A stretch of 37,507 bases of DNA from Candidatus Brocadiia bacterium (GTDB taxonomy: Bacteria > Planctomycetota > Uabimicrobiia > Uabimicrobiales > JABWCH01): positions 1 through 37,507 of the forward strand of contig JABWCH010000009.1 in assembly GCA_013359215.1 (NCBI GenBank). The letters are read 5' to 3'. Each line of letters opens with the position of its first letter. Positions within the stretch are counted from its first letter, which is position 1. Positions 1-37,507 of the stretch are shown here, one piece after another. Below the pieces are notes generated by a model. It was not told the origin of the DNA. It searched no databases and saw nothing but the letters and a program-made list of their open reading frames with translations. The translations under genes and the position numbers were made by a program.

Positions 1-357
1 AGAGCTTTCAAAACTAAATAGAGTCAAGATTTTAATCGTTTGCAAGATAGATATATATTGTATTTCAATATGTTAAGAATACCTGCGTAACTCCTATAAT
101 TAAATAACTTCCCCATTTCAAAAAAAATTTACCGCAGAGGCGCAGAGAAGAGAGAGGGCGTTGCATATAAATCCTTGATTTTTCAAGGAAAATAATGCCA
201 AAAGCATCAAAATATTTAGCAAATTGTGATTTGCCCTTAGTCATTTTTTTTCTTTGACAAGAAGTTTTAAGTCATTAAAATAGTTTATAGTAAAGAAATC
301 GTAGTTTATACTATAGATGGACAAGCATTTTTTATTTATTAGAAAAGGTTGAATTTT
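1..357. other. AT-rich leader region without a gene
   Basis: I see no credible coding sequence here. The stretch is AT-rich. Around 131-156 it contains a short purine-rich motif made of GCAGAG units, resembling the degenerate short-unit repeats seen elsewhere in this window (CACGAA and CACAAAA types). The last 110 bases hold a plausible promoter and the ribosome binding site of the first gene. Confidence 0.6.
254..281 (+). promoter_or_regulatory. Candidate sigma70-type promoter for wbpE-like gene
   Basis: A perfect TTGACA at 254-259 is followed after 16 bases by TAAAAT at 276-281, five of six matches to the -10 consensus. It lies about 75 bases upstream of the aminotransferase start. In such AT-rich DNA chance matches are common, so this is a prediction from spacing and consensus only. 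Confidence 0.4.
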
Positions 358-1443
358 ATGAATTTTATCGATTTGAAAGCCCAATATGCTAAGTATCAGA
401 AAGAAATCAATGCTCGTATTCAGGTCGTTCTGGACCATGGTGCTTATGTTATGGGGCCTGAGATTGTTGAAATCGAAAATAAAATGGCAGAATACGTGGG
501 CGTGAAACATGCTATTACTGTTTCTAGTGGAACAGCAAGTCTGGAAATTGCTTTGCGTGCTTTAGGAATTGGGCCTGGGGATGAAGTCATTACTGTTCCT
601 TTTACATGGATCAGTACAGCAGAAGTCATTTCCGCAGTAGGCGCAATACCTGTTTTTGTAGATATTGAGCCTAAATACTTCAATATTGATATAAAAAAAA
701 TGGAAGCGGCAATCACTCCAAAGACAAAGGCAATTATGCCTGTAAGCCTTTTTGGGCAGATGCCTGACTACGATGCTATTAACGCGATTGCGAAAAAATA
801 CTCTTTGCCCGTTATAGAAGACGCAGCCCAAAGCTTTGGTGCTACCCAGAATGGCAAACAAAGCTGTGGAGTTACTTTAATTGGCAGCACAAGCTTTTTC
901 CCCGCAAAGCCATTAGGCTGCTATGGAGATGGAGGCGCATTGTTCACAAGCGATGATAGCCTTGCCGCTAAGATGCGTGCTATACGCAATCATGGCGGAG
1001 AGAAACGCCATTTCCATCAATATGTTGGACTGAATGGCCGCTTTGACACTATCCAGGCTGCTGTTCTTCTGGCAAAATGGCCTCACTGGCCTTCTGAAAT
1101 AGAAGCTCGAAATAGAATCGGCGCTAGATACTCAGAGCTTTTAAACAACGTTTGCGTTGTTCCTGAAGTAATGCCTGGCAATACCCATGTTTACGCTCAG
1201 TATACAATTCGTATCGCTAATCGCGATGCTCTGGGCGAAAAGCTCAAAGCCAAAGGTATTCCTACAGCCGTTTATTATCCTAAATGCCTCCATGAACAAC
1301 CCGTTTTTGCCCCTTATGGTTGCAAACTTGGCGATTTTCCTGTATCAGAAAAAGCATCCCAGGAAGTCATAAGCCTTCCTATGCATCCTTTCCTGTCAGA
1401 AAAAGACCAGGATGGAATCGTAGAAGCAATCAAACAAGCCTAA
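358..1443 (+). CDS. wbpE: DegT/DnrJ/EryC1-type PLP aminotransferase, WbpE-like
   Basis: PLP-dependent sugar-nucleotide aminotransferase, expected to transfer an amino group from glutamate to the 3-keto sugar of a UDP-2-acetamido-3-keto-glucuronic acid intermediate in the cytoplasm. It is full length for the family (361 residues). Visible landmarks are the GPGDEVI segment, EDAAQSFGA with the PLP-ring Asp155, and FFPAKPLGCYGDGG with the Schiff-base Lys184. The similarity to Pseudomonas WbpE, as I remember that sequence, runs through the whole protein, including PTAVYYP and SLPMHP near the end. An in-frame TTG lies at 349, but AAAAGG at 343-348 is spaced correctly for the ATG at 358, so I chose 358. 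The next gene supplies the preceding oxidation and following acetylation steps, which supports a Wbp-type pathway over the related ArnB or DesV roles. Confidence 0.9.
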   Translation: MNFIDLKAQYAKYQKEINARIQVVLDHGAYVMGPEIVEIENKMAEYVGVKHAITVSSGTASLEIALRALGIGPGDEVITVPFTWISTAEVISAVGAIPVFVDIEPKYFNIDIKKMEAAITPKTKAIMPVSLFGQMPDYDAINAIAKKYSLPVIEDAAQSFGATQNGKQSCGVTLIGSTSFFPAKPLGCYGDGGALFTSDDSLAAKMRAIRNHGGEKRHFHQYVGLNGRFDTIQAAVLLAKWPHWPSEIEARNRIGARYSELLNNVCVVPEVMPGNTHVYAQYTIRIANRDALGEKLKAKGIPTAVYYPKCLHEQPVFAPYGCKLGDFPVSEKASQEVISLPMHPFLSEKDQDGIVEAIKQA

Positions 1444-3523: not shown

Positions 3524-4089
3524 AAATTTACCCATAACGCTGTCAACTTAAGGACAGCGGACTGTCCTAATACAGATAAACAGGAAAAGTATTTTATCAC
3601 GAATTTCACGAATGACCGAATGGCACGAATGAATAATTTTATCTTTATTTCTATAGTTTTGCAGATTTTTTTAACTAATTATAATCCAATAAATTATATC
3701 ATTAAATTTTAACACAAAAACACACAATATCTCAAAAGGCACAAAAATATAACTATATATCAGATAATATCTTATATTTCTTTTGTGCTTTTTGTGTTCT
3801 TTTTTTTGTTTTTTGTGTTTTTTATGCAAAAATCTGCAAAAGTATAGTTTATTTGTTTATTTGTTTTATTCGTATCATTCGCGATTTCAATATTTTTCTT
3901 TTCCGTCCTTGAAAAATCTTTACACTTTTACACAAGATTTCACTCGTAAGTGACTAAACCTAGACCTAAACGCCTTTATATCTATCATCATCCGTTTAGG
4001 TTTAGGTCATGCGTGTTAATTTATAAATACTGCTGCTTAAGTTGACAGTGCTATCTTTTTGTCTGTTGCTTTTGTGTATAGGAAATAAA
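3524..4089. other. Long intergenic region dominated by nested palindromes
   Basis: No gene is supported in these 566 bases. From 3597 to 3893 there are three inverted repeats one inside another, described separately. At about 3956-4010 a further inverted pair occurs: CCTAGACCTAAACG faces CGTTTAGGTTTAGGT. The words GCTGTCAACTTAAG (3539-3552) and CTTAAGTTGACAGTG (4036-4050) form an outermost, widely spaced inverted pair, and a similar TTAAGTTGACAGCG occurs at 17652. The AGGA before the next ATG is at 4080-4083. Confidence 0.7.
3597..3893. repeat. Nested three-layer palindrome including a degenerate CGAAT repeat
   Basis: The outer arms carry the CGAAT words of the dispersed repeat: TCACGAATTTCACGAATG on the left, TTCGTATCATTCGCGATT on the right. 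Inside them CTATAGTTTTGCAGATTTTT (about 3650-3669) faces AAAAATCTGCAAAAGTATAG (about 3828-3847). Inside those, CACAAAAACACACAA plus GGCACAAAA faces TTTTGTGCTTTTTGTGTT. The arrangement looks like palindromic elements inserted into the loops of earlier ones. Confidence 0.7.
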
Positions 4090-5133
4090 ATGCGATATTC
4101 TCGTGTGTATTTAGAATCTATGGCGTATGAACTACCGCCTATTGTTGTGACATCAGAAGAGTTAGAAGAGCGAATTGCTCCTGCTTATAAAACATTGAAT
4201 ATACCCCAAGGTCAGCTTGAAGAATTGACGGGGATCGTAGAGCGTCGGTTTTGGCCTGAAGGGTTTCGGGTTTCTCAGGGGGCTACTTTAGCAGCTAAAA
4301 AGCTTTTACAATCATGCCATGTTCCTGCTGGAGAAATTGATGTTCTGATTTATGCAGGAGTATGCAGAGAAGGCTTTGAGCCTGCTACAGCGACTTTTGT
4401 CGCTTCTTCATTGGGAATAAAAGATAGTAGCCTGGTTTATGATATTAGTAACGCCTGCCTTGGTGTTCTGAACGGAATTCTGGATATAGCCAATCGTATT
4501 GAGCTAGGCCAGAGCAGGGCAGGGATGGTGGTTTCTTGCGAAAGTTCTAGGGAAATCAATGAGATAACGATCAAAAAGCTTCTTTCTCAAACCAACATGC
4601 GTGTTTTTATCCAGTCGCTTGCTACCTTTACGGGTGGATCAGGTGCTATTGCTGTTTTGCTTACAGATGGCTCTTTTTCACGTGAGCATAGACCCAAGCT
4701 TTTGGCAGGTGCGGTTTCTTGTGCTCCTGAATTCTGTGAGCTTTGCCAGTGGGGCATTCTTCCAAAAGAAAATGGCTTGTATACGCAGCAGATGCATACA
4801 GATTCTGTAGCAGTCTTAGAAAATGGCGTAAAATTAGGGAAAAAAACATGGGACAGATTCTTGGAATCCATTGCCTGGACTCCCCAGATGGTGGATAAGA
4901 CCATTTGCCATCAGGTTGGATCTAAGCATAGAGAAACCATTCTTAATACAATTCAAATTTCCCTGGAAAAAGACTTTGTTACCTATCCTTTTTTAGGAAA
5001 TATAGGGACAGTATCTCTTCCCATCACATCTGCCATTGCAAATGAAAGAGGTTTTCTAAAATCAGATGACAAGGTTGCATGGTTAGGGATTGGCAGTGGG
5101 CTGAATTGTATGATGATAGGATGGGAATGGTGA
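4090..5133 (+). CDS. OleA-like thiolase-fold condensing enzyme (3-oxoacyl synthase III family)
   Basis: A ketosynthase III-fold enzyme of 347 residues that most resembles OleA, which joins two fatty acyl-CoAs head to head to give a beta-keto acid. The nucleophile is Cys123 in SNACLGVLNG, with His274 in ICHQVG and Asn304 in GNIGTVSLP completing the triad. Glu97 in FEPATA sits at the position of the OleA-specific catalytic glutamate, 26 residues before the cysteine as in OleA. The C-terminus AWLGIGSGLNCMM is also OleA-like. A TTG-initiated extension from 4042 is possible, but the ATG at 4090 has AGGA seven bases upstream and begins where family members begin. No OleB, OleC or OleD gene is nearby, so the final product cannot be told. 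The downstream gene starts 27 bases after the stop and is probably cotranscribed. Confidence 0.82.
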   Translation: MRYSRVYLESMAYELPPIVVTSEELEERIAPAYKTLNIPQGQLEELTGIVERRFWPEGFRVSQGATLAAKKLLQSCHVPAGEIDVLIYAGVCREGFEPATATFVASSLGIKDSSLVYDISNACLGVLNGILDIANRIELGQSRAGMVVSCESSREINEITIKKLLSQTNMRVFIQSLATFTGGSGAIAVLLTDGSFSREHRPKLLAGAVSCAPEFCELCQWGILPKENGLYTQQMHTDSVAVLENGVKLGKKTWDRFLESIAWTPQMVDKTICHQVGSKHRETILNTIQISLEKDFVTYPFLGNIGTVSLPITSAIANERGFLKSDDKVAWLGIGSGLNCMMIGWEW

Positions 5134-17214: not shown

Positions 17215-17700
17215 AGGTCATATCTCCTTGTTAAAATGGCAGAAACCAAAGAAAAATTTTATTGGATTCAAAAACTCACGTTTATGAATCGCAAAACAAT
17301 ATACAATGAATTATAAATAAATTCGAACTTTTGTCAAAAATTTTTATAAATTTCTAAACACATAAATAAGTTTCCAGGAAAAACCTTTGCAGTGTATGGA
17401 AAAATTTTATAAAATACTTGTGTTTAAGACTTGTGCTAGTTGAAAAAACTATTAATATATTGCTCTAACTTATTGTATAGAAACTAAGAAGTTAGATGTT
17501 TGTCCAAAAAGCAAAGATTTGATCACGAATAAGACGAATGGTCGAATGGCACGAATAGTTTTTATAAAAATTGCATGCATAATTTGTATATTCATCTCAT
17601 TCGTGATTCATACCTTTTTGGTTTTGGAGCGACCGCTTCCATTTGACATTGTTAAGTTGACAGCGTTGTTGGTATAGAAAAAAAATTAAAAGAGATGAAA
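17215..17700. other. Divergent intergenic region with CGAAT repeat
   Basis: This 486-base spacer separates divergent genes and so should hold both promoters, but no clear consensus stands out in the AT-rich DNA. It contains copy B of the CGAAT palindromic repeat (17488-17608). GGAGCGACCGCTTCC followed by TTAAGTTGACAGCG at 17625-17664 is shared with other spacers of this window. Confidence 0.65.
17488..17608 (+). repeat. CGAAT-rich palindromic repeat, copy B
   Basis: This matches copy A at 1479-1605 from GAAGTTAGAT through AAAGCAAAGATT, the CGAAT arm, the TTTTTATAAAAATT centre and the closing arm ending in CTCATTCGTGATT. It is in the same orientation as copy A and is closest to copy C after inversion (both read GTTAGATGTTTG and CACGAATAGTTTTTATAAAAA). 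Confidence 0.85.
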
Positions 17701-25187: not shown

Positions 25188-26204
25188 ATGGATTTTATGC
25201 AAATTTCCAAGAAAGATTTTCAGAAATTTGTGGAAAATTTGATCCAAAGCAAAGAAGAGGTTGTTGGTGTTGTAAAAAAAGGTAAACATTTTGCTTATGA
25301 TATTTTGGAAAAATCAGAGCAGCTTTGCCTGGACTACACAGAAACCATTTTGCCCCCTAAAAAGTACTTTCTTCCTGTGGAAGAAACGCTGCTAAAGTAT
25401 AAAACAGGCGTAGCCTCTTCCTACGAGGCAACCTATGGAAAATCTCCCAAGGTTATTATCGGTATCCATCCTGGTGATATGGCTGCCATTGCTCTTCTGG
25501 ATAAAAGCTTTTCCGAAGGGGAAAAAGATAGCCATTATCTGAATAAAAGAGCCAATAGCACTCTGATTGGAATTTACCCCACACAGTCTTTTCCTCACAG
25601 ATTCAGCAATTCTATGATAGAAAAGGATGCTTATAAAGCAGCAGATTGTTTTTTAGTGGATTTAGGGAATGATTATGGTATAGAAGTTGTTACAGAAAAA
25701 GGCAAAAAGATTGCTTCTGCGATGAAGGCTGTAGCTGGAGAAAAGGGCTTGAATGAAAAGATTGCCCAGGCCAAGGCCAAAATCAAAGATGAAGTTTCTA
25801 TGCCCTTTTCCCGCAGAGAGCTTTCTGAATTTTTGCATAATAAAGAAACTCATGCTGAATGGAAAAAACGCGCTGAAAAGTGTTTTTCTTGTGGTTCTTG
25901 TGTTCTTGTTTGCCCCACTTGCTATTGCTTTGACGTAAAAGATACAGTAGCTTTGTCCTTGCAAGAAGGCGAAAGAAAAAGAATGTGGGATGGCTGCATG
26001 TTGGAAAAATTTGCCAATGTTGCTGGCAACCACAATTTCCGTAAACTTGCGGGGGATCGCCTGAAACACAGAATCTTCCGTAAAGGCAAATACATAATCG
26101 ATAAATTTGGGATGGCAGGCTGTGTAGGTTGCGGACGTTGTAGCCAGGCATGTGTAGCTAACATTGCCAGCCCTGTGGATATAGTCCAGGAACTCAAAAA
26201 ATAG
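25188..26204 (+). CDS. hydB: [NiFe] hydrogenase (group 3b-like) iron-sulfur beta subunit
   Basis: Electron-transfer subunit of a cytoplasmic NAD(P)-linked hydrogenase, 338 residues. Two [4Fe-4S] motifs are clear: Cys232, 235, 238 and 242 in CFSCGSCVLVCPTC, and Cys312, 315, 318 and 322 in CVGCGRCSQAC. The family pattern continues in WDGCMLEKFANVAGNHNF. Compared with archaeal HydB as I remember it, the cysteine of the HxCD segment is Gly here (IGIHPGDMAAIALLD), and the CX6CFC-type segment has no cysteine (IGIYPTQSFPHRFS), so one further cluster seems lost. The start is at the first ATG of the conserved frame; AAAGG lies 11 bases earlier and a second ATG is three codons in. Confidence 0.9.
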   Translation: MDFMQISKKDFQKFVENLIQSKEEVVGVVKKGKHFAYDILEKSEQLCLDYTETILPPKKYFLPVEETLLKYKTGVASSYEATYGKSPKVIIGIHPGDMAAIALLDKSFSEGEKDSHYLNKRANSTLIGIYPTQSFPHRFSNSMIEKDAYKAADCFLVDLGNDYGIEVVTEKGKKIASAMKAVAGEKGLNEKIAQAKAKIKDEVSMPFSRRELSEFLHNKETHAEWKKRAEKCFSCGSCVLVCPTCYCFDVKDTVALSLQEGERKRMWDGCMLEKFANVAGNHNFRKLAGDRLKHRIFRKGKYIIDKFGMAGCVGCGRCSQACVANIASPVDIVQELKK

Positions 26205-26223
26205 TAGAAGGAGCGAAAAAAAG

Positions 26224-27054
26224 ATGTATCCTGAAAAATCCATTTATCTTCCTCAAGTCGCTACCATTACCAAAGCCAATATGATGACCAAGGTAGATAG
26301 ATATTTTGAATTCGAACTAGAAGGGGGCAAAGATTTAGGACATAAGCCAGGCCAGTTTGCTGAAATTTCGATTCCTGGTATAGGCGAAGCCCCGATTTCC
26401 ATTTCTTCTTCTCCTAATCTCAAGGGAAAATTCGAAATGGTGATTCGAAATGTTGGTGTTGTTACCAATGCTTTGCATAATCTTTCTGTTGGCTCAACAG
26501 TAGGCGTAAGAGGGCCTTATGGAACTCATTTTCCTATGGAAAAGCTAAAAGGAAGAGATCTTGTTTTTGTTTCTGGTGGTATTGGACTTGTTCCCATGCG
26601 TTCTGCTATCCATTATGCTTTAGAAAACCGCAAAGACTATGGCCGTATCATGATTCTTTTTGGAGCAAGAGACATAACTCAACGCCTCTTCGTTGATGAA
26701 TTAGCAGCCTGGAGCAAACAAAGTGACATCGAGTTTCTGGAAACAGTTGATGTCGGGAATCCTGATTGGAAAGGCAATGTAGGGGTGATTACCACTCTAT
26801 TCTCCAAAATTAAAGATTTCCACGCAGCAAACACTACAGCTTTTGTTGTAGGCCCTCCTGTGATGTATAAATTTGTCATTGTAGAGTTGTTTAAAATGGA
26901 TATGAGCAAATCAAACATTATCGTTTCTCTGGAAAGACACATGAAATGTGGAGTTGGCAAATGCGGACATTGCCAGATCAATCGTGTGTATGTTTGCCAG
27001 GAAGGTCCAGTATTTGCTTTGGATGCAATCAGCGAACTTAGGGAGGCAATCTAA
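26224..27054 (+). CDS. hydG: [NiFe] hydrogenase FAD/NAD(P)-binding gamma subunit
   Basis: Flavin subunit that passes electrons between NAD(P)H and the iron-sulfur subunits, 276 residues. It has a ferredoxin-reductase fold, with the FAD-binding PGQFAEISIPGIGEAPISIS, VRGPYGTHFP, the NAD(P)-binding VSGGIGLVPMRSAI and ILFGARD. Near the C-terminus Cys242, 247, 250 and 258 in KCGVGKCGHCQ and VYVCQEGP bind a [2Fe-2S] cluster. Length and domain order are normal for the sulfhydrogenase gamma subunit. AAGGAG at 26208-26213 precedes the ATG. It lies 19 bases after the beta subunit gene and two bases before the small subunit gene. Confidence 0.93.
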   Translation: MYPEKSIYLPQVATITKANMMTKVDRYFEFELEGGKDLGHKPGQFAEISIPGIGEAPISISSSPNLKGKFEMVIRNVGVVTNALHNLSVGSTVGVRGPYGTHFPMEKLKGRDLVFVSGGIGLVPMRSAIHYALENRKDYGRIMILFGARDITQRLFVDELAAWSKQSDIEFLETVDVGNPDWKGNVGVITTLFSKIKDFHAANTTAFVVGPPVMYKFVIVELFKMDMSKSNIIVSLERHMKCGVGKCGHCQINRVYVCQEGPVFALDAISELREAI

Positions 27055-27056
27055 AT

Positions 27057-27800
27057 ATGAAGCCAAAGGTAGCTTTTTTTGACTTTGCCTGTTGTGAAGG
27101 ATGCCAGCTTCAAATCGCAAACTTAGAAGAAGAGATTCTCGGTGTAGTTGCTCTGGTAGACCTTGTAGAATTTCGCGAAGTTCTTACAGGCCATGCTCCA
27201 GAATATGATATTACCTTTATCGAAGGTTCTATAACTCGCCCTGAAGACGAAGAAAGATTAAAAGACATTCGCAAACGTTCCAAAATCTTGATCGCTTTTG
27301 GTGCTTGTGCCACAACGGGTGGCGTGAATAAAATCAAAAATCTGCGAAATCTGGAAACGGTCAGGAAAGAAGTATATCAAGATGATTGGAATAAACCACA
27401 TCTGAATACTGCCCCTACAAAAGCCGTAGACGAAGTGGTCAAAGTGGATTACTATCTGCATGGCTGCCCTATCAACCGTAATGAATTTCTCAGCGTTGTA
27501 AAAGATCTGGCTATGGGGAAAGTACCCAGAATTCCTGATTATCCTGTTTGTGTAGAATGCAAGCTAAGAGAAAATGAATGCTTGTACGACTTAGGAAAAA
27601 CATGCCTCGGCCCTATTGCAAGAGCAGGATGCGCTGCTATATGTCCAAGCAACAAAAGCGGTTGTGAAGCATGTCGTGGAACTGTCCCTAATCCCAATAA
27701 AAACGCAATGCACGAAGTTCTTGCAAAGCGTAATCTTACTGTTGAAGCTATTATTCAAGAATTTACCATGTTTGCTGTCAATCCGGAGGTTTCTAAATGA
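27057..27800 (+). CDS. hydD: [NiFe] hydrogenase small (delta) subunit
   Basis: Iron-sulfur small subunit carrying electrons from the Ni-Fe site, 247 residues, cytoplasmic (no Tat signal). The proximal cluster ligands are CEGC at 13-16, the cysteine of FGACATTGG at 84 and HGCPIN with Cys137. Further cysteines at 165, 168, 175, 183, 192, 196, 203 and 206 match the two additional cubane clusters of group 3 enzymes. GGGAGG in the end of the previous gene serves as ribosome binding site. The stop overlaps the large subunit start as ATGA, indicating coupled translation. Confidence 0.93.
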   Translation: MKPKVAFFDFACCEGCQLQIANLEEEILGVVALVDLVEFREVLTGHAPEYDITFIEGSITRPEDEERLKDIRKRSKILIAFGACATTGGVNKIKNLRNLETVRKEVYQDDWNKPHLNTAPTKAVDEVVKVDYYLHGCPINRNEFLSVVKDLAMGKVPRIPDYPVCVECKLRENECLYDLGKTCLGPIARAGCAAICPSNKSGCEACRGTVPNPNKNAMHEVLAKRNLTVEAIIQEFTMFAVNPEVSK

Positions 27801-29098
27801 ACAATGACTCCATGAAAATCCATGTACACCATGTTACCCGTATCGAAGGGCATGGAAACATAGAAGTAGACATTCAGAACGGAGAAATCCGCAAAGTAGA
27901 GTGGCAAGTCCCAGAAGCCCCTCGTTTTTTTGAAGCAATGGTAGTAGAAAGAGATTGCGATCAGGTAGCCCCTATTACTTCCAGAATTTGCGGCATTTGC
28001 TCTATTGGACACACTTTTGCCTCTCTCAAGGCAACAGAAGCAGCCATGGGCATCCAGATTACAGAACAAACCAGAAAGCTCAGAGAACTCCTCCTTCACG
28101 GAGAAACGCTGCAAAGCCATATACTCCACGTATGCTATCTTGTTGTTCCCGATTTATGCAGAGTCAATAGCGTTGTTCCCCTTGCCTTTACCCATAAAGA
28201 TGTTGTTTTGCTCGTGACCAAACTGCACAGACTTGCCAATGAACTATGCGATGTGATCGGCGGACGCACGACCCATCCTATCCGTGCTGTCATCAATGGT
28301 TTTACCATGCTTCCTAAGCCAAAAGAACTCGAATCCTTGAGAAAAAGGCTTGTGGAAAGCGTTGAAGATCTAAAAACATTAGCTGGATTTGTCAAAACCA
28401 TTGCCAATGGATTACCCAACTTTGTTCGTGAAACCGAATACATCAGTCTGGCAGACCAAAAAGACTATGCTTTTTACGATGGAGACATCAAATCCAGCGA
28501 TGTAAAAGGCAACATTCCTATAAATGATTACAGAAAAGTCACCAATGAATATATATCGCCACAATCCACTGCGAAATGGACTAAATACAACAGAGAAGCC
28601 TATTTTGCTGGTGCTTTGGCAAGATATAACAACAATTATAAACAACTGACACCTTTCTCTTATGCTGTTGGTAAAGATTTAGGACTCGATGGCGTAAGCT
28701 ATAATCCTTTTATGAACAATGTTGCCCAGGTTGTGGAAGTTGTCTTTGCTGTAGAAAGATCCATCCAGATCATTGATGATCTTCTTGGCAATGGAATGAA
28801 AGAAGAAGACAATTCTTTCAAGAGAAGAGCAGGTCAAGGCGTTGGTGCAGTAGAAGTACCAAGAGGAATTCTCTTCCATGACTACACTTACGACGAAAAA
28901 GGAAAATGCGTAAAAGCCAATTGCATCATTCCTACAAACCAAAATCATGCCAACATCCAGTTGGACATGGAAAAGCTTGTTCCTGAATTTAAACATGAAG
29001 GAAAAGATGAGCTACAGTTCAAACTGGAAATGCTTGTCAGAGCTTATGACCCTTGTGTTTCCTGTTCAACACACTTTATGAAAGTCAAATTTATATAA
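27797..29098 (+). CDS. hydA: [NiFe] hydrogenase large (alpha) subunit
   Basis: Catalytic subunit for reversible H2 oxidation, 433 residues. The L1 motif RICGICSIGHT supplies Cys65 and Cys68, and the L2 motif DPCVSCSTH supplies Cys420 and Cys423, the four Ni ligands. HHVTRIEGHGNIEVD at the N-terminus is typical. Only seven residues (FMKVKFI) follow His426, the expected site of C-terminal processing, and the protease gene lies just downstream. Gene order beta-gamma-delta-alpha is that of group 3b (sulfhydrogenase-type) operons. GGAGG is at 27785-27789, seven bases before the ATG. A hairpin terminator follows immediately after the stop. Confidence 0.95.
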   Translation: MNNDSMKIHVHHVTRIEGHGNIEVDIQNGEIRKVEWQVPEAPRFFEAMVVERDCDQVAPITSRICGICSIGHTFASLKATEAAMGIQITEQTRKLRELLLHGETLQSHILHVCYLVVPDLCRVNSVVPLAFTHKDVVLLVTKLHRLANELCDVIGGRTTHPIRAVINGFTMLPKPKELESLRKRLVESVEDLKTLAGFVKTIANGLPNFVRETEYISLADQKDYAFYDGDIKSSDVKGNIPINDYRKVTNEYISPQSTAKWTKYNREAYFAGALARYNNNYKQLTPFSYAVGKDLGLDGVSYNPFMNNVAQVVEVVFAVERSIQIIDDLLGNGMKEEDNSFKRRAGQGVGAVEVPRGILFHDYTYDEKGKCVKANCIIPTNQNHANIQLDMEKLVPEFKHEGKDELQFKLEMLVRAYDPCVSCSTHFMKVKFI

Positions 29099-29118
29099 TG
29101 CAGACTTTCCTTGGCAGA

Positions 29119-29142
29119 GGCGGGGTTATTCCCGCCTTTTTT
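29119..29142 (+). terminator. Rho-independent terminator after the hydrogenase large subunit
   Basis: GGCGGG and CCCGCC form a six-pair GC stem around GTTATT and are followed by six T. It lies 20 bases after the large subunit stop and 16 bases before the protease gene, so it separates the structural operon from its maturation gene and should lower expression of the protease. Confidence 0.85.
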
Positions 29143-29157
29143 GGGAAAAGATAAAGC

Positions 29158-29634
29158 ATGAATCCCAATATCCCTTTGATTGTTGGAATAGGAAATCCCT
29201 TGATGGGAGATGATGGGATTGGCCCTTATGTCATAGAAAAATTGCAAGAAAAGCACCCTGATTGGGAATTTTTAGAACTGCATACCCCAGGATATACTAT
29301 ACTAAGCTATATCCAAGAAAAAAAAAGTCTGATTCTGGTCGATGCAGCCGACTTTGGAGGGAAGCCAGGCGAAATCAGAAGGGTTAAAAGAGAACAAGTC
29401 CAAAGCATAAAAGAACCCTGTTCCTTGAATCTGCATGGAGCTGATATTCTTACTGTTTTGGAAAATGCACCTTCCTGGGGCATATTCATAGACAATGTCA
29501 TCCTCTATTGCATCCAGATCGAATCCATCCATCCAGGGCATTCACTAAGCCATCTCCTTAAAGCCTCAGCCATAGAAGTAATTAGCAGCATTGAAAGAGA
29601 TATGCTGAATTTTAGGATGCAGGCAATATCTTAA
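29158..29634 (+). CDS. Hydrogenase maturation endopeptidase (HycI/HybD family)
   Basis: Nickel-dependent protease that removes the C-terminal peptide of the large subunit after metal insertion. The 158 residues are of normal length. The N-terminal GIGNPLMGDDGIGPYVIEKL contains the first metal-binding Asp18, Asp62 lies in LVDAADFGG, and His93 in NLHGADIL is the third ligand. IHPGHSLSHLL near the C-terminus matches the family. The substrate is presumably the hydrogenase encoded just upstream. The ribosome binding site is weak, and the intervening terminator suggests low-level readthrough expression. Confidence 0.9.
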   Translation: MNPNIPLIVGIGNPLMGDDGIGPYVIEKLQEKHPDWEFLELHTPGYTILSYIQEKKSLILVDAADFGGKPGEIRRVKREQVQSIKEPCSLNLHGADILTVLENAPSWGIFIDNVILYCIQIESIHPGHSLSHLLKASAIEVISSIERDMLNFRMQAIS

Positions 29635-29800: not shown

Positions 29801-29842
29801 TTTAAGAGAACAGTGTTGTGGGTAAAATTTGGAGTAAGAAAG

Positions 29843-32080
29843 ATGCCTATGTTTCCAGAAAAGCATGTTGTTTCAGGGAGATACCATATTCTTCAAAGTT
29901 ATCCTGATTCCTATTTTTATGGTTTTTTACATGAAGCAATGGATAAGAGGAAAGACAATTCTTCTGTGCGCCTGGCTTTATTGCATAACCATCTCCATTC
30001 CTATAAAAATCAGAATTTTCCTAAAAGCTTTTTTCTGCCTTTAGAAGCAGGACAGGCAGGGGAAGTGCCTTTTGTTGTCTTTCCCAAAGAGAAAAAAATA
30101 AGCTTTGGCGATTTTATTTCTTCTATACAAGGACAACCTAGAAAAAGAGACCGATTTTTTCTAAAGCTCCTGGACTGGATATACAATCTGCATCTTCAGT
30201 CTTTTACCATGCCTTATCTAAACCCTGATTTGATTTTTGTGGATGAATCTTCTCCTTATGTCTTAGGCCCTTTTGATTTTGTTATGGAGAAGCTCGACCC
30301 TAGCATAGATGAAATAAGGCGTTTTTTCTCTCCAAGGTATTTAGGCCGATCTTATAACACGAATATTAAGCTAGGGCCAATGGATGATTACTATCCTTTT
30401 TTTGTCATGTTTTTAGAAGCACTACAAGGCAGCATGGTTTCCTGGGATAGCATGAGCTGCCATCTTAGAATACAAGAAGACAAAATTCCCATTGAATACC
30501 AGTGGATGATGGAATATCTTTCTGTTAAAAAAATGCCAGAAAAAGAAGAAGATCTCTACTTAAAAGTGCGTTCCTTCCTGGAAGCAAGACTAGGCTGGAG
30601 CTTAAGAATACAAGGAAGACCAGGACATCTGAAATCTACTTTTTTATGGGATGGACAGGAAAAAATTTTTCCTGCTGTTTATAAAATCCCCTACACAACC
30701 AGCAGGATTTCCCTGGAGTTTATCGAAGAGATACCAGACGAGCAAGAAAACGATTGCTGCTATCACCTATGCGATATTCAGACAACCCCTGGGGCTTTTT
30801 TCCATAGATACGAAAGCAATCGTATAAATTGGCTTGCTGTGGAGGACACGGCAGATTCTAAAATAGAATTGGAATATGAACAGAAAACAAAAGTAGAGAT
30901 GATTCTATCTATACCCAAAAATTGCAATCCTGATGTTATGCTGAATAAAAAAATCTGGGAAGGTTTCAAAAGCATCTCTCTAAAAGAAAGCAAAATAGCA
31001 TTTTCTTCCTGGATTTCTCCTCAAAGTTCTGTTTATATCCAAATAAATCCTGGAAATGGGTTTGAGATCGCCTCCTGGAGTGTGGATGGCATTCCTAAGT
31101 TTGAGATGCAAAACAGCATTTCTTTAGATCCTTCTTACAGAGTACGCCAGGTACATTGTCAAATCAAGTCTTCTGGCGGATCATGGACAGCAGGAATAGT
31201 GTTTTTATCTTTTCTCCTTGTATCCTTGATAGTGGGAGTATCCTGGCTTTGCTACCCCTATTTTTTGAAGAAAGAAAATGAAAAAATCGTTCCAAAACCC
31301 CATAAAATCTTGTCTGTGGATATTCCTGAGAGCAAACAGCAAGAAAATCTGCTTCCATTGGAGAAGAATGCACAAGGGTTTATGGAATATAAGAGAAAAC
31401 AGGATGGCATGGTTATGGTGGAAATACCAGAAGGCAAATCCCACTTAAAGATGGGCAACCAGCCAGTGAAAGAGTATGTTCATGATACATATTGGATAGA
31501 CAAATATGAAGTCACTTATGGGCAATTTTTAAAATTTTTGAATGCTGAAAAAATCGAGGTTGCAGTCCATGAAGAAAAAATGTATTCTATCCAATATGAT
31601 GGCACTTTATATATCCCTGGCTCAAATTTTGATGCAGCAAAGCCTGTAACCAATGTCAGCCTTGATTTAGCCAAGAAATATGCCCGATGGGCAGGAGCGG
31701 ATTTGCCTACAGAAGCAGAATGGTGCAAAGCTGCTTCCTGGCATGAAGAAAAGCAAATGCAATACGACTATCCCTGGGGCAACAAAAAGCCTGACTCCCG
31801 CTCTTTATCTAAATATTTGAATTCCATAGAAAATGGAAAGAAAATAGGAAAAGCTGATATGGCAGAAGAAGGCAAATCTCCTTACGGCCTTTTCAATATG
31901 GCAGGAAATGCAGGCGAATTTTGCAGGGTTTCTTCTGCAAGCAACGAATACATTGTCAAAGGTGGCTCTTTTTATGAAAGCATAAACCATTGTCAGGTAT
32001 ATTTTCAACAGCACATTGGGCCAGAAAAAAAATATCCCCAAATTGGATTTCGCTGTGTTATTCGTAAAAAAATAGAATAA
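29843..32080 (+). CDS. Membrane protein: pseudokinase, TM helix and FGE/sulfatase-modifying-factor-like domain
   Basis: A 745-residue protein in three parts. Residues 1 to about 235 follow a Ser/Thr kinase fold (GRYHIL, DWIYNLHLQ, YLGRSY then DDYYPFFVMFLEALQG), but the catalytic HRDxKPxN loop reads MPYLNPDL, and the DFG site reads GPFDF, so it should be inactive. A single transmembrane helix is at about 449-473 (GIVFLSFLLVSLIVGV). Residues 523-745 are a formylglycine-generating-enzyme-like (SUMF1/EgtB/PvdO superfamily) domain, with YWIDKYEVTYGQFL, PVTNVSLDLAKKYARWAG, LPTEAEWCKAA, GLFNMAGNAGEF and GFRCVI. A GTG at 29813 is possible, but GGAG eight bases before the ATG at 29843 is better. The downstream gene starts 12 bases after the stop. 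Kinase-FGE fusions are typical of Planctomycetota. Confidence 0.8.
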   Translation: MPMFPEKHVVSGRYHILQSYPDSYFYGFLHEAMDKRKDNSSVRLALLHNHLHSYKNQNFPKSFFLPLEAGQAGEVPFVVFPKEKKISFGDFISSIQGQPRKRDRFFLKLLDWIYNLHLQSFTMPYLNPDLIFVDESSPYVLGPFDFVMEKLDPSIDEIRRFFSPRYLGRSYNTNIKLGPMDDYYPFFVMFLEALQGSMVSWDSMSCHLRIQEDKIPIEYQWMMEYLSVKKMPEKEEDLYLKVRSFLEARLGWSLRIQGRPGHLKSTFLWDGQEKIFPAVYKIPYTTSRISLEFIEEIPDEQENDCCYHLCDIQTTPGAFFHRYESNRINWLAVEDTADSKIELEYEQKTKVEMILSIPKNCNPDVMLNKKIWEGFKSISLKESKIAFSSWISPQSSVYIQINPGNGFEIASWSVDGIPKFEMQNSISLDPSYRVRQVHCQIKSSGGSWTAGIVFLSFLLVSLIVGVSWLCYPYFLKKENEKIVPKPHKILSVDIPESKQQENLLPLEKNAQGFMEYKRKQDGMVMVEIPEGKSHLKMGNQPVKEYVHDTYWIDKYEVTYGQFLKFLNAEKIEVAVHEEKMYSIQYDGTLYIPGSNFDAAKPVTNVSLDLAKKYARWAGADLPTEAEWCKAASWHEEKQMQYDYPWGNKKPDSRSLSKYLNSIENGKKIGKADMAEEGKSPYGLFNMAGNAGEFCRVSSASNEYIVKGGSFYESINHCQVYFQQHIGPEKKYPQIGFRCVIRKKIE

Positions 32081-33245: not shown

Positions 33246-33362
33246 TTGAGACGAATATACAAATTATGCGAATGAATTTTTTATAAAAACTATTCGTGCC
33301 ATTCGAGCATTCGTCTTATTCGTGATAGAAATCTTTGCTTTTTCGGCAAACATCTAACTTCT
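33246..33362 (-). repeat. CGAAT-rich palindromic repeat, copy C (inverted)
   Basis: Read on the minus strand it runs GAAGTTAGATGTTTGCC, AAAAAGCAAAGATTT, the CGAAT arm, TTTTTATAAAAAATTC and TTTGTATATTCGTCTCA, matching copies A (1479-1605) and B (17488-17608). The last ten bases of the closing arm are diverged. It begins eight bases after the stop of the coiled-coil gene. Confidence 0.85.
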
Positions 33363-33523
33363 TAATTTTTATACCTCTGGTGGATTCCGCGTATAAAAAA
33401 AAAGACCCAATCTAAAAATTTTTGTAGTATTTTTCTGTTATTGAAAATAAGATTTGGTAAAATAGATATTGTTTTTCTTGACAACATCATATCTCATAAG
33501 ATCTTCTTGAAGGCGATGATTCT

Positions 33524-34651
33524 ATGAATGAAAATCCTTGTTTGGTAATAAAATATTGGGGGGTAAGAGGAAGCATCCCTTGCCCTTTATTGCCTGATCA
33601 AATCAAAGCAAAGCAAATTGCCTTGATCCATAAAATGATCCAAGATGGTGGTATGGAAACAATTTTGGGAAAAAATCCTTCTGGCGAGCAGATAGAACAA
33701 TATCTTGCGACTTTGCCAACCTCTATTTCCAGTACTTATGGAGGCGATACCACTTGTTTTGAAATCCAGGCAAAAAATTCTCCTTTAATCATTTTAGATG
33801 CAGGAACAGGCATTCGCATGCTTGGCAGAACTCTTTTGGCGAGACTCTTTAGCGAACAAAATCTAAACCCTCTCAGTGCCAATTCTGAAACAGCGCAGGA
33901 TATCCATTTGTTTTTTACCCACTACCATTGGGATCATATTCAGGGATTTCCTTTTTTTGCGCCAGCTTTTGTGCCAGGAAAGAAAAAAGTGGGTATGCAT
34001 TTTTATGGCAAAAGAGATGCCAGAGTAGAGCTCTCTGAAGTACTAAAAGGCCAGCAGCAGTTTCCGAATTTCCCTGTGATTTGGGAAGATATGCCTTGCC
34101 AGAAACATTATCTGGAATTGAGAAGGCTCAATCCCAGGAAAATAAAGCTAGGCGAGTTAGAAATCAGCTATCAGGAACTCACTCATCCTGATTTTGTCTT
34201 TGCTTACCGTTTTGAAGTCGGGGGAAAAGCATTTGTTTGTGCTACAGACACAGAACACAAGGACACTCCTGATCCCAGGCTGGTAAAACTAGCCCAGGAT
34301 GCTGATATATTATACTATGACGCACATTATACACCTGAAGAATATAGAGGAACACCTGGATCTCTTACAGGTGCGATGAATAAATTCGATTGGGGGCATA
34401 GTACATACGAGTGGGGAATCAAGAACGCATTGGCTGCTAATGTCAAGACAGTGGTATTGGGGCATCACGAACCGCTTCGCGATGATTTCCAATTGCAAGA
34501 ACTATGGGAACGAGCACTCTCTTATACGGAAAAACAGCTAAAAATGCCTCAAAATGCAGATAAAAAGTTAGAAGTAGTAATGGCTTATCAAGGGTTGGAG
34601 CACAAACTTTATGCAAAATTCGATGAAAGTTTACATCAAGAGAATAGATAA
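33524..34651 (+). CDS. Metallo-beta-lactamase-fold hydrolase (PDE/RNase Z-like)
   Basis: A 375-residue cytoplasmic metallohydrolase. The N-terminus WGVRGSIPCP and STYGGDTTCFEI are typical of a cyclic-nucleotide-phosphodiesterase-like or RNase Z-like branch of the superfamily. The metal motif is FTHYHWDHIQGF with His133, His135, Asp137 and His138. ATDTEHKD and VVLGHHEP supply the later Asp and His ligands. An additional helical segment (residues 25-65) separates the first two strands. The substrate is not evident. GAAGG lies ten bases before the ATG. It is the first gene of a tightly packed operon; its end overlaps the dUTPase-family gene by 41 bases. Confidence 0.85.
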   Translation: MNENPCLVIKYWGVRGSIPCPLLPDQIKAKQIALIHKMIQDGGMETILGKNPSGEQIEQYLATLPTSISSTYGGDTTCFEIQAKNSPLIILDAGTGIRMLGRTLLARLFSEQNLNPLSANSETAQDIHLFFTHYHWDHIQGFPFFAPAFVPGKKKVGMHFYGKRDARVELSEVLKGQQQFPNFPVIWEDMPCQKHYLELRRLNPRKIKLGELEISYQELTHPDFVFAYRFEVGGKAFVCATDTEHKDTPDPRLVKLAQDADILYYDAHYTPEEYRGTPGSLTGAMNKFDWGHSTYEWGIKNALAANVKTVVLGHHEPLRDDFQLQELWERALSYTEKQLKMPQNADKKLEVVMAYQGLEHKLYAKFDESLHQENR

Positions 34652-35057
34652 ATCCTTGCCTTTGCCTGTTTATTATACAGAAGGATCTGTAGGGTTTGAT
34701 CTTTACTCGCGTTTAGATATTTTAATTCCGCCTAAAAGTTTGTATCGCATTCCTACCAATCTTGTGATTGAAGTCAACCTAGGCTATATGCTTTTTATCA
34801 AAGACCGATCTAGCACAGCCAATAAAGGTCTTTTTGCTACAGCAGGCATTGTAGACCAGGATTTTTGTGGGCCAGAAGATGAAATCCTTTTTCAGGTATA
34901 CAATTTTAAAGACGAGCCTGTAATCATATCCAGAGGCGAGCGCATTGCACAAGGCGTTTTTGTCCAGATTGCAAAAGCATCCTGGCAAGAAGACGAGATG
35001 CTCTCTAAGAAAAACAGAGGAGGATTTGGCTCAACAGGCGATGCAGATTTTAAATAA
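34611..35057 (+). CDS. dUTPase-family protein
   Basis: A 148-residue homotrimer-type nucleotide hydrolase, expected to turn dUTP into dUMP and pyrophosphate. The five family motifs are present in order: GSVGFDLYS (1), KDRSSTANKGL (2), AGIVDQDFCG with the catalytic Asp in VDQD (3), RGERIAQGVF (4) and RGGFGSTGD (5). Motif 2 reads DRSS instead of PRSS, and motif 3 carries FCGPEDE in place of YRGE, so the substrate pocket may be altered. The ATG at 34611 has GGAG ten bases upstream within the end of the MBL gene; an ATG at 34623 is the alternative. The synthase gene starts 46 bases after the stop. Confidence 0.85.
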   Translation: MQNSMKVYIKRIDKSLPLPVYYTEGSVGFDLYSRLDILIPPKSLYRIPTNLVIEVNLGYMLFIKDRSSTANKGLFATAGIVDQDFCGPEDEILFQVYNFKDEPVIISRGERIAQGVFVQIAKASWQEDEMLSKKNRGGFGSTGDADFK

Positions 35058-35103
35058 AGCACTTGTGGTTTCGGCACTTACTCCAAGACAAAGAGAGTTC
35101 ATC

Positions 35104-36183
35104 ATGGGAATCCAATCTGTTTTTAAAAATGCCAGGGTTTCTGGAATTGTTACTATTTCAGGGCAGATCAAAAGATCTATTGATGAAGAGATAGATCTTT
35201 TTGGTGGAGATTCTGCTCAGATTGAGCGAATCAAAAAAACTATAGGAATCGGCACAAGGTATATAACCGATGAAAAAACCACTACCTATGATCTGACCAG
35301 GGAAGCTGTTTCAAAGCTCATGGAAATGGCACACCTTAAGCCAGGAGAAATCGAAGGCATAGTGTTTGTGACACAAACCCCTGATTATAGAATGCCAGGG
35401 AACTCCCATCTCCTGCACAGAGAGTTTGGTTTTCCTAAAAGCTGCGTAGCCTTTGATGTTAGCCTGGGCTGTTCTGGATATATTTATGGACTATGGCTGG
35501 CATTCAGCATTCTGGCTTCCAGCAAATGCCAAAAAATTTTGCTTTGCGTAGGGGATACCTTAAGCAAAATAGTCAATAAAAAAGATAGAGCCTGCGCTCC
35601 TATTTTCGGAGATGCTTCAAGTGCCACTTTAATAGAGAAAACTCCAGAAGAATCCCCTACTTATTTCATTCTCTACTCAGATGGATCTGGGTTTGGACAA
35701 ATGATTCAGCCAGCAGGCGGATACAGGCTTCCTTTTTCGCTAGAAACCCAAAAAGAATCCGCAGATAAAGATGGTAATATAAGAAACTTAGAAAATTTCT
35801 ATATGAATGGGTTTGAGGTTTTTAGCTTTACCATGACAGAGCAGCCGCCTCTTTTAGAAGAAATATTGCTATACTCGCAAAAAAACATAGAAGACATTGA
35901 CTATTTCATATTGCATCAGGCCAATACCTATATTATCAAAACAATTGTCCGAAAAGCCAAAATACCCATTTCCAAAGTCCCCTATAAAACCTTTGAAACA
36001 TTAGGAAACCATTCTTGTGCCTCAATACCAGCCACTATCTGCCACGAGCTATATGATAAAGTCTCAAAACAAAATTTGCAGCTTGTTCTCCAAGGCTTTG
36101 GATCAGGTCTTTCCTGGGGTGCATGCTCTCTCAATGTGAACAATATCCTCTGTCCTAGCGTGGAATTTTATAAAAGCAAATAA
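35104..36183 (+). CDS. Ketoacyl-ACP synthase III-type condensing enzyme, first of a pair
   Basis: A FabH-like condensing enzyme of 359 residues. The triad is Cys123 in SLGCSGYIYG, His271 in ILHQAN and Asn302 in LGNHSCASIP. A longer open frame starts at 34945 inside the dUTPase gene, but the alignment of MGIQSVFKNARVSGIV with the start of the following paralogue places the beginning at the ATG at 35104; AAAGAGAG upstream can serve as ribosome binding site. The N-terminal SIDEEIDLFGGDSAQIERIK is unlike FabH of the fatty-acid pathway and like synthases of secondary or surface-glycan acyl pathways. The next gene is a paralogue and starts one base after the stop, so this arose by tandem duplication. 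Confidence 0.88.
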   Translation: MGIQSVFKNARVSGIVTISGQIKRSIDEEIDLFGGDSAQIERIKKTIGIGTRYITDEKTTTYDLTREAVSKLMEMAHLKPGEIEGIVFVTQTPDYRMPGNSHLLHREFGFPKSCVAFDVSLGCSGYIYGLWLAFSILASSKCQKILLCVGDTLSKIVNKKDRACAPIFGDASSATLIEKTPEESPTYFILYSDGSGFGQMIQPAGGYRLPFSLETQKESADKDGNIRNLENFYMNGFEVFSFTMTEQPPLLEEILLYSQKNIEDIDYFILHQANTYIIKTIVRKAKIPISKVPYKTFETLGNHSCASIPATICHELYDKVSKQNLQLVLQGFGSGLSWGACSLNVNNILCPSVEFYKSK

Positions 36184-36184
36184 T

Positions 36185-37327
36185 ATGACAACTTCACACT
36201 TCCAACACGCCAAAATTACAGGCATATCTGCTGTTGTCCCAGACTATAAAAAATCCATTGATGATGAAATCGAATATTTTCAGCAAGATCGGAAAAAGCT
36301 GGAACGGGCAAAAAAGATGGTTGGTTTTGGTACACGATACGTTGCCCCCAAAGGCTGTACAACTGTGGATCTATGCCAGTCTGCTGCCTTACTTTTGCTC
36401 CAGGGGATGAACATAAATGTCCAGGATATAGATGCCCTGGTATTCATGATCCAAAAGCCTGATTTTTCTCATCCTGGCTCTTCTTCCCTTGTGCATAAAT
36501 TTCTCGGATTACCGACGACATGCGCTGCTTTCGATGTAAACCAGGGATGCGCAGGGTATGTCTATGGACTTTGGCTCTCAAGCTCCTTGATTGAAAGCAA
36601 AGCATGTAAAAAAATCTTGCTTCTGGCAGGGGATAACCCCAGCACGACTACAGGTACAAATCGTATAACAGAGCCTGTTTTTGGGGATGCAGGGACAGCT
36701 ACCCTTATCGAATATACCCAGGAGGAATGCAGCTCCTATTTTTCTTTAGGAGCGGATGGCAAAGGATATGACTCTTTGCTTGTTCCTTCTAGCGGAGAAA
36801 GGCTTCCTGTGGATAGAGACATTTTAGATCTTAGCATTGATGATGGAAAAGGAAATCTATGGAAATTAAACCAATGCTTCATGAATGGAATGGACATCTT
36901 TCATTTCACTTTATCCATTGTGCCTGAAAATATTAAGGAAGTTTTGCAGTTGGCTTCTTTAACCCAGGAAAGCATAGATTTTTTAGTTCTCCACCAGGCA
37001 AACAAGCAAATCGTGGAAACAGTAGGAATGAAATCAGGTTTTAGTAGCAAACAGTATTCCAGCGAAACGTTCAGCACCTATGGCAACCAATCTACAGCAT
37101 CTGTGCCTTCCTGTATATGCCATTTGCTTAAAGATAAAGTATCCCAAGGTAAGCAAAAATTACTACTCTCTGGCTTTGGGATTGGCCTGTCTTGGGGAAG
37201 CTGTATAGTGGATTTAAACCATATCTATTGTTCTGGAATTGCATTGCAAAAATTCGATAGCATTCGATCTCGTGAAGAAGAAATCCAACATTGGATCAAT
37301 AAAATCCTTGGGAAATCGAATTCCTGA
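36185..37327 (+). CDS. Ketoacyl-ACP synthase III-type condensing enzyme, second of a pair
   Basis: A FabH-like enzyme of 380 residues, clearly homologous to its neighbour throughout (SIDDEIEYFQQDRKKLERAK compares with SIDEEIDLFGGDSAQIERIK). The triad is Cys122 in NQGCAGYVYG, His270 in VLHQAN and Asn301 in YGNQSTASVP. Asn-Gln-Ser replaces the usual Asn-His-Ser beside the catalytic Asn. It has about 25 extra residues at the C-terminus (FDSIRSREEEIQHWINKIL), helical and charged. The two synthases could form a heterodimer or act in turn on different acyl chains. No acyl carrier protein or ketoreductase gene is visible before the end of the window. The start ATG lies one base after the previous stop. 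Confidence 0.88.
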   Translation: MTTSHFQHAKITGISAVVPDYKKSIDDEIEYFQQDRKKLERAKKMVGFGTRYVAPKGCTTVDLCQSAALLLLQGMNINVQDIDALVFMIQKPDFSHPGSSSLVHKFLGLPTTCAAFDVNQGCAGYVYGLWLSSSLIESKACKKILLLAGDNPSTTTGTNRITEPVFGDAGTATLIEYTQEECSSYFSLGADGKGYDSLLVPSSGERLPVDRDILDLSIDDGKGNLWKLNQCFMNGMDIFHFTLSIVPENIKEVLQLASLTQESIDFLVLHQANKQIVETVGMKSGFSSKQYSSETFSTYGNQSTASVPSCICHLLKDKVSQGKQKLLLSGFGIGLSWGSCIVDLNHIYCSGIALQKFDSIRSREEEIQHWINKILGKSNS

Positions 37328-37352
37328 GAAAAACTTTAGGAGCAGAAAGAAT

Positions 37353-37507
37353 ATGAGTGAATTCATTGAAGAATTGACAATTGAACAGTTTGAAGAAGGC
37401 GAGCAGTTGATTGAGGTCTTGGAAAAAGAAATTTTAAGCAAAGGTGCATGGGCAACCATTCTCTACCTTTATCGCGAAAAAGACAGAAAAACCATGGAAT
37501 TTAAAGA
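37353..37507 (+). CDS. Small conserved protein, 5' part only
   Basis: The window cuts this gene after 51 codons. The ATG at 37353 has TAGGAG (AGGAG at 37338-37342) ten bases upstream. The product begins MSEFIEELTIEQFEEGEQ, followed by a Leu/Glu-rich helix and SKGAWATILYLYREKD. I have seen this pattern in small uncharacterised bacterial proteins but know no function for it. It lies 25 bases after the second synthase gene and probably belongs to the same operon. Confidence 0.6.
   Translation, partial: MSEFIEELTIEQFEEGEQLIEVLEKEILSKGAWATILYLYREKDRKTMEFK

Follow-up and report, generated by a model that had tools for sequence, protein, structure and literature searches.

The viosamine island of Pseudomonas syringae pv. 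tabaci 6605, comprising vioA, vioB, vioS, vioR, acp, vioM and vioT, has been proposed to lead to dTDP-N-(3-hydroxybutyryl)-2-O-methylviosamine for flagellin, and has its counterpart in the flagellin glycosylation island of P. aeruginosa PAK (PMC3927599). The genes described below resemble this island in having a beta-ketoacyl-ACP synthase III (KASIII), an ACP, a 3-oxoacyl-ACP reductase and a putative sugar N-acyltransferase as a set. They differ, however, in that two tandem KASIII of other clades are present, the set is distributed over two contigs, a GNAT-like acyltransferase takes the place of a NeuD/VioB-like one, and no aminotransferase is linked to the set. Literature searches on tandem KASIII enzymes at glycan loci turned up nothing specific other than the viosamine island. 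The comparison makes an odd-looking operon understandable as, probably, a glycan-acylation gene set of known kind that has spread between phyla; what appears to be new here is a conserved pair of condensing enzymes, which we did not find described, and a cassette that is broken in two in a genome whose close relatives are without it.

A run of five genes at a contig end

The stretch of DNA analysed (the window) is an entire contig of 37507 bp (G000:C5, hereafter C5) of a 6.39 Mb draft genome in 576 contigs that is 84.7% complete, and the last gene is therefore cut at position 37507. Five ORFs were confirmed, all on the forward strand:

33524-34651, + strand: MBL-fold hydrolase (PF12706, Lactamase_B_2, 7.2e-11)
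34611-35057, + strand, probable start 34623: dUTPase (Dut; PF00692, 2.2e-22)
35104-36183, + strand: KASIII-A, FabH-like, first of a tandem pair (PF08541, 2.1e-20; PF08545, 1.6e-18)
36185-37327, + strand: KASIII-B, FabH-like, second of the pair (PF08541, ACP_syn_III_C, 2.7e-21)
37353-37507, + strand, open at the contig end: small gene, 5' end only (relative in G001 57% identical)

The Pfam identities of the dUTPase, both synthases and the MBL enzyme are far above chance. Successive ORFs overlap by 41 bases and are then separated by 46, 1 and 25 bases; these places, strands and distances agree with a sequence-only reading made earlier, and only the dUTPase start is doubtful. Orthologues of this protein align from the equivalent of Met5, so translation probably begins at 34623, which would reduce the overlap with the MBL ORF to 29 bases. 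The spacing makes cotranscription of the five genes a plausible prediction. No terminator-like site was seen on the + strand between them, and promoter-like matches around them in a promoter scan were at chance level and uninformative. Close spacing alone is, at any rate, no proof of a pathway.

The sequence-only reading had taken the dUTPase-like protein to be altered in motifs 2 and 3 and possibly to act on another substrate. These motifs are indeed variant but not disabled, since RSS and the catalytic Asp82 are retained in the ortholog alignment. Like Dut, the trimeric dUTP diphosphatase, the protein keeps all five motifs (GFDLYS at 28, RSSTA at 66, GIVDQDF at 79, GERIAQ at 109 and GGFGSTG at 137) and is the sole dUTPase found in a search of this genome, differing in an extra CGPEDE stretch in motif 3. 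It scores 79.6 bits against PF00692 (gathering score 22) and 97.3 bits against TIGR00576, just under the cut-off of 102.55. Orthologues with 63-64% identity, located among unrelated genes in G002, a genome of the same family, and in G004, one of the same order, have the stretch in the form CGPxDE, and a synthase search of the nearest genomes detected no orthologue of the synthase pair (none in G002, at most 30 bits in G004). As the odd motif also occurs in genomes without the synthases, it is unrelated to them, and with five intact motifs in a single-copy protein the idea of a changed substrate is not supported; judged by its motifs, the protein appears to be an ordinary Dut. Phage sequences among the matches listed were 36-38% identical, with no sign of a phage origin.

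The MBL protein exceeds the cut-off only for the general Lactamase_B_2 domain and reaches 43.2 bits against the RNase Z model TIGR02651, below its cut-off of 292.95. Its orthologues, 72% identical in G001 and 53% in G002, each have other neighbours, being followed by a 477-aa protein or a glutaminyl-tRNA-synthetase-like ORF (recognised by eye) and by no dUTPase. The small protein is a member of an unnamed family, about 100 aa in length, that occurs in 9 of the 294 genomes of the phylum, this one included; besides the G001 protein there are seven weaker relatives elsewhere, and those examined have other gene neighbours. The family pattern GAWATI..RY.K..G.YR.QS.FNI is seen in the fragment at 37353-37507 and in L131, L134, L135 and L136. 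Neither Pfam nor NCBIfam matched the fragment, and Pfam did not match two full-length relatives. An identity as the ACP was considered for this protein and rejected, as it is without carrier-protein features and database matches and its relatives adjoin other genes. The neighbour genomes in these comparisons are 59-86% complete, with flanks of about 1.5 kb.

The synthase pair and its partners

KASIII-A and KASIII-B are 41% identical, and in both the ACP_syn_III and ACP_syn_III_C domains score over the cut-off. Alignment bears out the Cys-His-Asn triads noted previously (Cys123/His271/Asn302 in KASIII-A, Cys122/His270/Asn301 in KASIII-B), and with triads and domains kept both enzymes are, as had been proposed, probably active. 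The best NCBIfam model for both, over the full length, is that of the beta-ketoacyl-ACP synthase III PRK12880 (NF009519); the scores of 281.7 bits for KASIII-A and 260.6 bits for KASIII-B, however, lie under its equivalog cut-off of 436. At the position aligned by eye with Phe87, the primer-gating residue of E. coli FabH, Met is found in all four A members of the pairs described below and Gln in nearly all lone A types, while the B types are variable; the two synthases therefore probably use different primers. A plasmid search with KASIII-B detected, among the matches listed, only relatives with 34-35% identity.

On scanning 84,980 species genomes with a two-sequence alignment of the synthases, 80 loci from other genomes were obtained. 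Near the synthase and on the same strand, an ACP was present in 67 of the 80 loci, an SDR in 65 and a NeuD-type acyltransferase in 60; a DegT aminotransferase was near it in 21. None of the 80 contained a homologue of the other three genes of the run, for MBL enzyme, dUTPase and small protein (E 1e-5; some loci have short flanks). Adjacent synthases in the order A then B, overlapping by 4-20 bases, were identified in four loci:

L051 and L052, Gastranaerophilales (Melainabacteria): tandem A-B, ACP, SDR, then a GNAT-cluster protein
L053 and L055, Acidobacteria MAGs: tandem A-B, ACP, SDR, then NeuD

These loci share with the present genome the orthologous pair, its order, the ACP and the SDR, and differ in that the cassette is contiguous there and split here. 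L051 and L052 differ further in having FdtA-type and other sugar genes; L051, with FdtA, FkbH-domain, DegT aminotransferase, capsule and glycosyltransferase genes, is by its gene content a glycan locus. The synthase tree places the window's KASIII-A with the A synthases of L051, L052 and L053 (support 100/99; the A fragment of L055 was too short and was left out) and KASIII-B with the B synthases of L051-L055, L057 and L058 (support 98/99). The grouping of A with A and of B with B implies co-inheritance of the pair, apparently in three or more phyla, two of which are named according to the record labels. Synthases of both types are also found singly, with an ACP and SDR of their own; neither type, then, is strictly dependent on the other in all cases.

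Another layout with two KASIII of other clades, an SDR and a NeuD was observed in L104, L110, L115, L119, L120 and L130 (Oxalobacteraceae, Caulobacter and Pseudomonas), most of which include a Rieske-type oxygenase recognised by motif. In Pseudomonas viridiflava (L120) the genes encode 338, 213, 253 and 1182 aa, near the published sizes of VioS, VioB, VioR and VioT, which ties the synthase superfamily to the viosamine pathway, although the A and B types are of other clades.

An ACP and a reductase had been predicted to the right of the window. Both exist in the genome, but on another contig, C25: a search of this genome with the cassette SDR detected C25:23460-24194 at 308 bits, the next match reaching 98.6. 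The genes concerned, all on one strand, are:

L196:10412-10191, contig C25, same strand as the SDR: ACP (22 bits with PP-binding; PEWDSLAMM)
L196:10194-9454, contig C25, same strand as the ACP: SDR (308 bits)
L196:9499-8717, contig C25, same strand, overlapping the SDR: 260-aa acyltransferase-like protein (weak WecD-type match)

The three form a tight overlapping operon, flanked by genes for a peptidase C25 and a DNA ligase. The weak match of the 260-aa protein is to the model of the WecD-type dTDP-4-amino-4,6-dideoxygalactose acyltransferase (25 bits, E 1.2e-5), and no sequence match was found for it among solved structures (PDB). For the ACP, the SDR, KASIII-A and KASIII-B alike, the best match among the ORFs of the 80 loci comes from L051 and the second best from L052. 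The SDR falls into a clade of 17 (support 100/99) in which every other member derives from a locus that has a B-type synthase. Among the six genomes of the order, this one alone has the cassette-type SDR (the SDRs of the other five reach at most 126 bits, against 308), and the same is true of the KASIII pair. The DNA ligase on C25 is 51-58% identical to that of four members of the order and about 30% identical to those elsewhere, which marks the contig as native to this lineage. Since the operon is located about 8 kb from the nearer contig end, the two halves are genuinely separate loci rather than the two sides of one assembly break. An ACP and SDR adjoining the KASIII, as in four of the four orthologous pair loci, are thus absent here. 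No sugar gene was found adjoining either half, and no DegT-like aminotransferase is linked to either, the nearest such ORF in the window (349-1443) being more than 33 kb from the pair. Two terminator-like hairpins occur directly upstream of the ACP gene (L196:10412-10620), the second of which ends some 20 bases ahead of the start codon.

Competing explanations

The explanation we favour, with a probability of roughly two in three, is that the genome holds a horizontally acquired acyl-ACP/N-acyl-sugar cassette with two KASIII, split over C5 and C25, and that the other three genes of the run (MBL enzyme, dUTPase, small protein) are no part of it. The original order would have been KASIII-A, KASIII-B, ACP, SDR reductase and acyltransferase; after the split, the synthases would have come to lie behind dut on C5 and the remainder to form an operon of its own on C25. 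One acquired cassette that later split would be the simplest history, and two separate gains are possible. On the analogy with VioS, VioR, ACP and VioB (PMC3927599), the set should make a 3-hydroxyacyl-ACP and acylate an amino sugar. The KASIII enzymes would join a short acyl-CoA primer to malonyl carried by the dedicated ACP, giving a 3-oxoacyl-ACP, the SDR would reduce this to the 3-hydroxyacyl-ACP, and the GNAT-like acyltransferase would transfer the acyl chain to an amino sugar that is probably nucleotide-linked and destined for a surface glycan, provided that both halves continue to work jointly. By the same analogy the acyl chain would be 3-hydroxybutyryl; as pocket residues differ between KASIII-A and KASIII-B, the product may not be this one. 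It can be suggested, tentatively and with the odds against it, that the tandem pair is a co-inherited two-enzyme unit, acting as a heteromer or in successive condensations with different primer pockets, whose acyl product would be longer than, or otherwise unlike, that of single-KASIII cassettes, and which would still work though its partners have been relocated. If so, the pair would offer a testable case of division of work between KASIII enzymes in surface-sugar decoration.

That the pair might instead be the organism's own FabH for fatty-acid initiation, duplicated and unconnected with sugar modification, is suggested by the PRK12880 KASIII model, which no other protein of the genome matches as well (70 bits for the next), and by synthase searches of G001-G003, which found no FabH, so that the family may lack a standard one. 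Against the fatty-acid FabH model TIGR00747, however, the two score only 180.4 and 163.5 bits, below the curated cut-off of 292.1; moreover their relatives accompany dedicated ACP, SDR and sugar acyltransferase genes, and the nearest genomes manage without the pair, all of which makes this explanation unlikely. An assembly or binning fault, by which foreign synthase genes were joined to C5, could be imagined for a region at a contig end in a draft of so many contigs. We regard it as very improbable, for native family genes flank the pair at 46 and 25 bases and two false joins would be needed, the GC content of the pair (0.41) is near that of the contig (0.39), and the other half is present independently on a contig with native genes.

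Just as improbable is the pathway of all five genes that the sequence-only reading had entertained, specific to this lineage, in which the dUTPase-like and MBL enzymes would process a nucleotide-linked compound made by the synthases. The tight arrangement on one strand is compatible with a single transcript; nevertheless, none of the 80 synthase loci includes any of the three other genes, their orthologues in G001, G002 and G004 have other neighbourhoods, and the dUTPase, its motifs kept and its copy the only one, groups with ordinary single-copy Dut. The neighbourhood comparison thus finds the homologues scattered, and together with the dUTPase motifs it led us to reject a pathway of five genes that includes a neofunctional dUTPase. 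The genes for MBL enzyme, dUTPase and small protein are best regarded as ordinary genes of the family that became neighbours by chance or through loose operon formation, and their adjacency to the synthases is almost certainly accidental, outside the acylation cassette.

Other features of the window

Another KASIII, of PRK09258 type (451.5 bits against a cut-off of 285), is encoded at 4042-5133, downstream of sugar-nucleotide-like genes and adjoining a 432-aa protein without a Pfam match. By eye, the gene run at 25188-29634 reads as a cytosolic [NiFe] hydrogenase with iron-sulphur, FAD/NAD, small and large subunits and a maturation protease, and 29813-32080 encodes a 755-aa protein with a kinase-like N-terminal part and a C-terminal sulfatase-modifying-factor (FGE) domain. 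Finally, a dispersed repeat, about 125 bases long and in part palindromic, is located at 33248-33375, 17475-17598 and 1475-1593, and in part at 3586-3630. With about 40 copies of 91-94% identity across the contigs of the genome, it resembles a small, non-coding element of mobile or REP-like type.
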